Shown here: positions 25,308 to 27,270 of the stretch, in pieces
Layout: each line of letters begins with the position of its first letter
Position numbering within the stretch: position 1 is the first letter of the stretch
NCBI RefSeq assembly: GCF_000338295.1
Contig: NZ_ANMO01000157.1
Location: 1 to 33,351, forward strand
Length of the DNA: 33,351 bases
From: Rhodopirellula europaea 6C
Lineage (GTDB): Bacteria; Planctomycetota; Planctomycetia; Pirellulales; Pirellulaceae
Reading direction: 5' to 3'
Translations under genes and position numbers: made by a program
Notes under the pieces: model-generated
What the model saw: only the letters and a program-made list of their open reading frames with translations
Databases searched by the model: none
What the model was told of the DNA's origin: nothing

Positions 25308-25631
25308 CTAGTGAACATTCGGAAGCCTGTTGCGAATGATCTTCGTGGTTGGATTGCCGGGCATGATGGTGTCGCACCACATCTCGCCCTCGAAGACGTA
25401 TCGCACTTGGATCGCTTGTGCTTCGTCGGCGGCGAATGCGGCTTCAGCGGTCGCTAACGTGACAGCAGCATCGGTTGCGTGCGATTTCATTTGCACCTGT
25501 TGAACGTCAGCACCACCGGCCAGATCGGCAAACAACTGCAAGACTTGGTCCTTGGCCCATTCGGCTTGCAGGATTTCCGGTAGCGGTTCGTTGTTTTCCA
25601 GATCTTCCAGCGTTAGTTTTTTCGATGTCAT
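25308..25631 (-). CDS. Unknown small protein at the end of the nap operon
   Basis: Protein of 107 residues from the ATG at 25631, which overlaps the napF stop (ATGA). It is acidic, begins with an amphipathic helix (TLEDLENNEPLPEILQAEWAKDQVLQLFADLAGG), and continues with beta and Ala-rich helix segments ending GEMWCDTIMPGNPTTKIIRNRL. There is no signal peptide, so it is cytoplasmic. I do not recognise the family. Coupling to napF makes a role in Nap maturation, electron transfer or accessory chaperoning possible. The longer frame up to 25832 lies within napF and was not used. Confidence 0.7.
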   Translation of the reverse strand: MTSKKLTLEDLENNEPLPEILQAEWAKDQVLQLFADLAGGADVQQVQMKSHATDAAVTLATAEAAFAADEAQAIQVRYVFEGEMWCDTIMPGNPTTKIIRNRLPNVH

Positions 25632-26395
25632 GCGTTGGGTGATCCAGGACGTGAGAATGCGGGCATCAACAGGATCGCGTTTTCGGGTGCTGGGCAAACG
25701 TAGCGGCACACGCCGCATCCGGTGCAGGTATCTTCGTTGATCGTTGGCTTGCCGTCGGTGACCGCGATCGCTCCGTCGACGGGACATCGTTCGCTGCACA
25801 CGGTGCATGTCGTTGAGTGATGAGCGAGGCACAGATGCTCAGTCACTTTTGCCGTGCCCATGATCGGTGGAATCGAATCAACCAACACGCCGGGTTCACA
25901 CGATGCGATGCAAGGAAAGTCGTCGCACATCATGCACGCAGACGTGTCGGCTTCGATGATGGGTGTGCCGGCAACGCTGCCGGTTCGCGCGGGAGCTTTG
26001 ACAATCGCATCGTAAGGACACGCGGTGATGCAGTCACCACATCGCGTGCAACCGGCAAGGAACTGGTACTCGTCAATGGCACCGGGCGGACGGAAAACCG
26101 GGATCGTTTGCGAGAACGCTTTGCCCCCCAAGTTCGTCGGCGGGACTGGGTCAATGTTGATGCCACCGATACTTCGCGGCTTTACTTCCGGAGATGATTC
26201 TACTTCCGGCTTCGGGTATCGCATCACCAGCGGTGCGAACTTGTTCGATGGAATGAATTTCCACAGACGACCTTGCAAAAGATCGCGTCGGCTTTGGTTG
26301 GGCTTGGAGCGTGCGAAGAGAAATTTTGACGCAGAGACGGGGAGACGGAGAGCCGCCGAGAGCAGCCGTTTGAGCGCAGAGAAGAATCTTTTCAT
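25628..26395 (-). CDS. napF: NapF-like ferredoxin with four [4Fe-4S] clusters
   Basis: Protein of 255 residues from the ATG at 26395. From residue 33 it follows NapF: NQSRRDLLQGRLW (E. coli NapF begins near SRRGILTGRW), then clusters CTRCGDCITACP (116-127), CMMCDDFPCIASC (154-166), CTVCSERCP with upstream Cys189 (to 204) and CTGCGVCRYVCP (224-235). NapF is a cytoplasmic protein that assists NapA maturation. The first 25-28 residues (MKRFFSALKRLLSAALR...) have no counterpart in NapF and are encoded by a palindromic repeat. The gap to napB is 83 bases, while all other junctions in this operon overlap by 4 bases, so the original start was probably displaced. Confidence 0.88.
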   Translation of the reverse strand: MKRFFSALKRLLSAALRLPVSASKFLFARSKPNQSRRDLLQGRLWKFIPSNKFAPLVMRYPKPEVESSPEVKPRSIGGINIDPVPPTNLGGKAFSQTIPVFRPPGAIDEYQFLAGCTRCGDCITACPYDAIVKAPARTGSVAGTPIIEADTSACMMCDDFPCIASCEPGVLVDSIPPIMGTAKVTEHLCLAHHSTTCTVCSERCPVDGAIAVTDGKPTINEDTCTGCGVCRYVCPAPENAILLMPAFSRPGSPNA

Positions 26396-26475
26396 AAATA
26401 CCAACTTTGCGTTGCCACTCTCCCACTCGTTCTCTGCGTCTCCCCGGCTCTTGCGTCTCTGCGTCAATTTTTCTC
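26319..26475. repeat. Palindromic repeat inserted at the napB-napF junction
   Basis: The left side (26319-26355) and right side (26430-26475) pair as inverted copies of a TTGACGCAGAGACG...GGGGAGACG-AGAG sequence, with some extra bases in the right arm. The CGCAGAGACG type is a repeat of a kind seen in many genomes. It occupies the whole intergenic space and the first codons of napF, including its ATG in the loop region. Confidence 0.7.
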
Positions 26476-26478
26476 CAA

Positions 26479-27270
26479 CTACTTCGCAACCACATCAAGC
26501 GGCGGCAACATCGGAACGATGTCGGCTTCGGGCATTTGATCGAGCGTTGCCGACGGAGCGTGACACTGGGTGCAGTTCGTTCGCCACGGGTGAGTCGATT
26601 CCATGCCAGCCCATCCATGCGGGCCACCGTGACACGCATTGCAGCTCTCACGCATCCACTGCGAATGCGGGATCGTCGGCGGTGCCCCCTGATAAGCTCG
26701 CTTGCCTTGTTTTGGTGCTGGCAAACCAACGAAGCTGGTATCGACGCTCGCATCAACGTCTTGAAACGGTGCGGGTGCCATCGGAGCGTGGCACTGCACG
26801 CAGTTGCCCAGGAATTGGTGCGACATCACGCTGGCTTTCAGGCCCGCCATCTTCACTCCGTTGGAATGGCATGCATAGCAAGCGGCATCCGTTGTGTTCT
26901 CGACGGGGTGAGGGATGATCGGCGGCGCGCCGTTGAAGGCGCGACGCGACGCGCGGAGCTTGCTCGATGCTTCTTTTTCAGCCTCACTCGGTTCGATCTT
27001 CGTATACAGATCGTAGTCCGCGCCCGGTAACGCTTGAGGCATCCCCTGCCATGGCTTCGTCGGCCCCATCGGCGTGCTCGCGATTTCCGCGTAGCTGACC
27101 GCCGGAATCAGCTTCACTTCACTTGCCACCGTTGCCGACAGCTCGCGATCGAGCAAAGGAGAATCGTACAAACCATCCGGCTTGGGTACGCCATCGCCGA
27201 GGCCGACGAAGTATCCGACCACCGCGACCGCCATGACCAGCGAAAGAAAGATTGTCGTCAGTCGATTCAT
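26479..27270 (-). CDS. NapB-like cytochrome c, internally duplicated (tetrahaem)
   Basis: Protein of 263 residues with an N-terminal membrane anchor or signal (TIFLSLVMAVAVVGYFVGLG). It has four haem motifs: CYACH (131), CVQCH (157), CNACH (210) and CTQCH (233). Two units are evident, 109-163 and 190-239. Each begins RRAFNGAPPIIPHP or KRAYQGAPPTIPHS and ends NCVQCHAP or NCTQCHAP, which is the NapB pattern. Usual NapB has two haems in about 150 residues, so this is a tandem duplication. It likely hands electrons to NapA in the periplasm. The ATG overlaps the napA stop (ATGA). The region between the signal and the first unit is unlike NapB. Confidence 0.85.
   Translation of the reverse strand: MNRLTTIFLSLVMAVAVVGYFVGLGDGVPKPDGLYDSPLLDRELSATVASEVKLIPAVSYAEIASTPMGPTKPWQGMPQALPGADYDLYTKIEPSEAEKEASSKLRASRRAFNGAPPIIPHPVENTTDAACYACHSNGVKMAGLKASVMSHQFLGNCVQCHAPMAPAPFQDVDASVDTSFVGLPAPKQGKRAYQGAPPTIPHSQWMRESCNACHGGPHGWAGMESTHPWRTNCTQCHAPSATLDQMPEADIVPMLPPLDVVAK

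Follow-up and report, generated by a model that had tools for sequence, protein, structure and literature searches.

Can a gene of nitrate respiration come to begin inside a palindrome? The napB-napF junction of Rhodopirellula europaea 6C raises this question. We analyzed a stretch of 33,351 nt (contig NZ_ANMO01000157.1; hereafter the window), whose minus strand encodes napA, napB and napF in this order.

The palindrome and the start of napF

An imperfect palindrome (26318-26475) lies between the napB stop codon (26479-26481, minus strand) and the SRR motif of napF. Its outer inverted arms (26318-26339/26454-26475) are 22 nt long and 91% complementary, and its inner arms (26333-26352/26432-26451) 20 nt long and 90% complementary. 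The repeat measures about 142 nt, from TTGACGC to GCGTCAA, or 158 nt including the outer ends. Folding of the stretch 26300-26500 gave z scores of -6.3 for the plus strand and -5.95 for the minus strand, which corresponds to the mRNA, and 0 of 200 shuffles were equally stable in either case. An earlier account of this DNA, made from its letters alone (the sequence-only reading), had proposed that a repeat fills the napB-napF gap and runs into napF, and both arms and fold confirm this. The features of the junction are as follows.

26479..27270, minus strand: napB (open reading frame; Pfam NapB, E 3.9e-9)
26318..26475, minus strand: palindromic repeat of a dispersed family, probably read as napF codons, about residues 1-50 counted from TTG 26467 (inverted repeats, fold, dispersed copies, recoding test)
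25628..26467, minus strand: napF with the proposed start, 279 codons (open reading frame; 4Fe-4S domains; NCBIfam napF below cut-off)
26473..26476, minus strand: GGAG, putative ribosome-binding site, 5 nt before the TTG
26465..26467, minus strand: TTG, proposed napF start (open frame; homologous starts in orthologs)
26393..26395, minus strand: ATG in the loop of the palindrome, here an internal methionine, residue 25
26318..26410, minus strand: codons of a predicted helix, residues 20-50 (AlphaFold2; block pLDDT 74-82 for residues 21-50)

The name NapF, which we took over from the sequence-only reading, fits the SRR..L.GR.W motif of the product, its 4Fe-4S domains and its place in the nap operon. 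The protein differs from NapF in having 58 residues before SRR when translated from the TTG, and it scores 60.3 bits with the NCBIfam napF model (TIGR00402), under the curated cut-off of 102.2. The NapG model PRK09476 gives the same product 102.4 bits, more than the napF model and below its own cut-off of 269.

We then considered where napF begins. The sequence-only reading had chosen the loop ATG at 26395, which is indeed in frame, is separated from the napB stop by 83 nt and places SRR at residue 35. The napF frame, however, is open across the entire repeat as far upstream as TTG 26467, located 11 nt past the napB stop at the outer edge of the repeat. We parsed 38 napF loci, 37 of which contain the SRR motif (it is absent in G293); loci L041-L047, L090 and L091, which came from napF searches, lie outside these counts. 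A 5' arm is recognizable in seven of the 37 orthologs, the window counted and two of them (G009 and G002) being close sisters and not independent. In all seven the distance from the napB stop to the arm is 4-18 nt and the arm reads in the frame of SRR with no intervening stop codon, and six have a TTG or ATG at the homologous place, the seventh (G001) having a GTG slightly upstream. Because frame and start position are matched in this way, napF probably starts at TTG 26467 rather than at the loop ATG, and almost all of the repeat, some 50 codons, probably codes for napF. The earlier idea that only the left arm is coding is not supported, as the frame is open through the full repeat. A TTG start also shrinks the napB-napF gap from 83 to 11 nt: the 83-base gap said to set this junction apart exists only if measured to ATG 26395. 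As for the 4-base ATGA overlaps described for the other junctions, they are present at napA/napB and between napF and the next gene, and an ATGATG is seen at napD/napA.

A dispersed repeat family within the napF reading frame

Copies of the repeat occur elsewhere. A DNA search of the window's own genome (G000) returned five further matches on two contigs (C195 and C11), two of which are one stretch matched on both strands, and matches also turned up in 7 of the 39 further genomes examined, among them the napF of G023 itself. Dispersed copies from several genomes span about TTGACGCAGAG to CTCTGCGTCAA and are 104-153 nt long (12 properly cut copies). Both arms of the window repeat are similar to copies outside napF, which makes it a member of this dispersed family. 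The repeat is not a high-copy element of its own genome, where a 13-mer allowing one mismatch or fewer had 23 matches, compared with 19 for the reversed control.

Several copies were observed in other settings. Repeat arrays flank a GxxExxY gene (TIGR04256, E about 7e-38) in the window's genome (L048:2397-3931, G000:C195) and in Aporhodopirellula aestuarii (G008; L053:1330-2655, G008:C80). A general link with GxxExxY genes was rejected, the arm pattern being found in 5 of 30 GxxExxY loci and in 3 of 35 nap loci (napF arms counted); 14 of the 17 matches at GxxExxY loci fall in the two arrays. In G009, a 111-nt copy (L069:1421-1531) lies about 5 kb upstream of napF, flanked by genes that read from their ORFs as iron-sulfur subunit-like and NrfD-like, and its 3' arm is close in kind to the napF 3' arm of the window.

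We further asked whether the coding DNA resembles the repeat more than its protein requires. Orthologs of the 37 entered each analysis in different numbers: 27 for recoding, 31 for the protein extension (plus six reference rows), 28 for translated repeats and 18 for folding. In the recoding test, the stretch before the helix (5' part) and the helix stretch (3' part) were compared with dispersed copies, against a null of 1000 synonymous recodings drawn with the codon use of the gene. For the window, similarity exceeded recoding in both parts (P 0.001 each, the floor of the test). The 5' part beat recoding in 8 of 27 orthologs (P<=0.011; G000, G385, G001, G009, G267, G002, G252 and G373), this part lying partly outside napF in species with overlapping starts. 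The 3' part did so in 5 of 27 (P<=0.05; G000, G023, G252, G009 and G001), with 1.35 expected by chance, and was not significant in G385 (P 0.11). Here G385 is Planctomycetes bacterium CA13 and G252 Planctomycetes bacterium K23_9; Rhodopirellula sallentina is G012. No significance was reached in this test by a group of six orthologs (G245, G284, G357, G462, G420 and G037; hereafter the g24 group), by family f7 (G217, G071 and G133), by G008 or by Rhodopirellula rubra (G003).

At the protein level, translated repeats matched the helix in G000, G385, G023 and G252 (P 0.005) and in G001 (P 0.015), among 28 orthologs tested with a library of 13 copies, one of which (L052) was cut at wrong coordinates. 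The helices of the g24 group did not match translated repeats significantly when tested directly (P 0.075-0.99), so they are linked to the repeat only via window-type sequences. The equation of helix and repeat therefore has two links: window-type helices resemble the repeat in DNA and in translation, and they resemble the g24 helices in protein. The 3' part of the window, G023, G252, G009 and G001 matches the repeat at the place where it aligns with helices of repeat-less orthologs.

The N-terminal extension and its helix among relatives

The sequence-only reading had presented the change as one that befell this genome. We compared N-terminal extensions as protein, anchored at SRR, with a reference of G000, G385, G023, G001, G009 and G252. 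Of 31 further orthologs, 16 have an extension like the reference (P 0.0005, the floor), one gave P 0.006 and 14 are unlike it; the change is thus not peculiar to its own genome. The 16 include the g24 group, G217, G071 and G488. In 13 of them no repeat arm was detected (the others being G002, G267 and G373), not all 16 having been in both arm tests. The sequence-only reading had itself named such an extension in repeat-less relatives as what would speak against it, and as it was worded this now weighs against a recent insertion. We accordingly rejected a recent, lineage-specific insertion with a start at the loop ATG, since relatives too have the extension and an upstream in-frame start. Aligning the operons also brought out relatives with short NapF proteins, as an insertion would lead one to expect: the napB stop and SRR are 17, 50 and 65 nt apart in G422, G486 and G489, where NapF begins close to SRR, as expected of an empty site. 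The distance is 157-187 nt in orthologs with the repeat against 122 nt in the g24 group, a difference of 35-65 nt. ATGA-overlap napF starts are found throughout the g24 group and in G488. The far end of the repeat, read by eye, lies eight codons ahead of SRR in G000, G385 and G023.

Two relatives have napF sequence with no napA or napB detected. In Neorhodopirellula pilleata (G010; L043, L138) napF is reduced to its end, which is 96% identical across residues 223-279 (numbering of the 279-residue form), and no napA or napB was found in 11 kb of sequence there, which marks it as the remnant of a lost operon. In Stieleria tagensis (G223; L076) napF stands with no napB or napA detected in the 5.5 kb upstream, and CHxxGVKMAG-like napB remains are fused close before it.

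The helix codons are mostly under purifying selection, as judged from few codons: across the 22 of them, ten of 13 pairs had a dN/dS of 0.15-0.65, two had values of 0.87 and 2.8, and one was undefined, the comparison using ungapped core columns that offer no good control. The AlphaFold2 model is poor outside the helix (mean pLDDT of the whole model 51, pTM 0.21). The sequence-only reading had the repeat donate an amphipathic helix. A helix is predicted, and in the window its hydrophobic moment stands out, being reached by 0.8% of shuffles; amphipathicity as a conserved trait was rejected, as shuffles reach the moment in 5% of cases for G245, 18% for G385 and 71% for G009. A role of the helix in membrane or partner binding would be a guess.

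The history of the locus was followed on a midpoint-rooted tree of napA, napB and napF from 35 genomes; the NapF core alone gave no resolved tree. The arm-bearing rows fall inside a weakly supported group of 18 (83/52). The g24 group (100/100) is sister to it, and both are joined at 99/96. Farther out come G133, then G008 and G003, and beyond them a mixed outer set, in which G422, G489 and G486 have short N-termini, G071 has the helix and the rest have N-termini of other kinds. Forcing the nine arm-scored rows into one clade lowered the log-likelihood by 227 (p-AU 5e-90), and a clade of the helix rows minus G071 was also rejected (p-AU 0.0175). At least six changes of the arm and at least five of the helix are required, with G293 (which had no extension test) and G395 (P 0.006) scored as helix-less. 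Since the arm-bearing orthologs are not a clade, either losses or several insertions are needed, and the tree by itself does not decide between one insertion and several.

Origin of the N-terminus

We lean, a little past even chances, toward a single old insertion where napF originally started, after which the protein was kept and the palindrome eroded at DNA level in the majority of descendants. In an ancestor of one lineage within the Pirellulaceae, a short palindrome of the dispersed planctomycete family would have landed at this start. Its outer end would have provided an in-frame TTG directly after the napB stop, and some 50 of its codons would have become the NapF N-terminus. The encoded helix would then have persisted as protein while most descendants lost the palindrome through decay; the palindrome is best preserved in the window and in Planctomycetes bacterium CA13. 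A ribosome ending napB at 26479 would meet the TTG 11 nt on and is probably what uses it: GGAG and TTG are both paired in the predicted mRNA hairpin of the window, so translation of napF may depend on that of napB. A single insertion followed by many losses or decays is suggested by the similar near-end place and frame of the arms and by the similar far-end place in three genes. That this was a single domestication, in which the repeat contributed some 50 codons as well as the start beside the napB stop, and that selection has since kept the helix across many genera, is a possibility we hold tentatively, somewhat short of even chances. Against a single insertion, G071 has the helix although it is placed outside the main group. 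In our own reading, the idea of an insertion would hold only for an old event, followed by decay of the palindrome in the majority of descendants. Of the original proposal, the outline of a repeat that became the NapF N-terminus and supplied its start is supported, by the repeat family and by relatives with short NapF proteins; the ATG, the coding by one arm and the restriction to one genome do not.

The chief rival is that a pre-existing helix was overwritten: the helix would be an old NapF feature, to which a later repeat added the 5' arm and the start, with the helix codons made similar to the repeat through conversion by dispersed copies or through template switching in the quasi-palindrome. 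We consider this rather unlikely. It would account for the helix of orthologs that lack repeat DNA (the g24 group, G217, G488 and the outlying G071), for the ATGA-overlap starts of the g24 group and G488, which fit an untouched operon, and for the lack of significance when g24-type helices are set directly against translated repeats. It is at odds with the match to the repeat, beyond recoding, right at the helix in the 3' part of the window and four orthologs (G023, G252, G009 and G001), and an added repeat of 104-153 nt should have lengthened the napB-SRR stretch far beyond the 35-65 nt found.

Slightly less likely still are several independent insertions or replacements at a junction that attracts repeats, with that of the window being fairly recent. 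Other, unrelated-looking inverted repeats lie at the napB-napF junction in G023 (L031) and G399 (L089), so the junction may attract repeats. G023 also carries arms of the window's family between napA and napB (L107:3770-3925), which places that family at two junctions of its nap operon. The scatter of arm-bearing orthologs outside a single clade and the palindrome of the window, far more intact than that of most orthologs, would fit such a history as well. Against it, the arm lies 4-18 nt from the napB stop in one frame in 7 of 7 arm orthologs, and the far end is alike in the three genes compared by eye.

That the repeat is an untranslated leader whose hairpin regulates napF, the gene then starting at ATG 26395 or in some other way, is improbable: the window's mRNA hairpin is strong and pairs GGAG and TTG, and ATG is the commoner start codon, but all seven arm-bearing orthologs maintain the frame across the arm and the hairpin stands out in only 3 of the 18 folded (z -4.5 in G000, -3.6 in G385 and -2.9 in G023, the last with another palindrome). 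The remaining 15 range from -1.7 to 0.6. A conserved regulatory hairpin was rejected for this lack of conservation, and with a strong fold of the window-type repeat left in 2 of 18 orthologs, a decaying relic fits better than a regulator.

The window repeat can be set beside several known elements. Rickettsia palindromic elements are described as 105-146 bp long, with terminal inverted repeats and in-frame fusions within conserved protein genes (PMC2229807), and RPE-1 at protein N-termini is reported as expressed in R. conorii (PMC3733652). The window palindrome agrees with them in size (about 142 nt, 158 nt with the outer ends) and in its fusion to the napF frame; it belongs to another organism, is likened to them by description and not by sequence, appears to supply the start, and encodes a peptide common to many genera. 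ERIC and the 107-bp form of Correia elements are described as small and MITE-like with inverted ends and open frames, mostly intergenic and sometimes fused in frame (PMC2229807), and the window repeat shares the small size, the inverted ends and the in-frame fusion. REP elements of the GTAG and CGTC superfamilies are palindromic, are reported from planctomycetes too and often lie just past stop codons; those at gene N-termini exist, many perhaps not coding, and the unit is described as 20-40 bp (PMC3733652), from which the 104-153 nt of the window's family (12 copies) differ. Coding palindromes of the Rickettsia type are thus already known, and the window case is a variant of them. The window case differs in that the repeat itself seems to supply the start and that the peptide persists across genera. 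Our literature search found no title or abstract opening naming a repeat-derived NapF N-terminus, and a published report may still exist.

Palindromic repeats within genes are mostly seen as tolerated passengers. If the favored reading is true, repeat DNA was turned into protein sequence at the start of a nitrate-respiration gene: the repeat starts a respiratory protein, and its peptide outlives the repeat, which would show the conversion of a repeat into protein. The transition would be traceable in living relatives, some having a near-intact palindrome and others a helix in which nothing of the repeat can be recognized.
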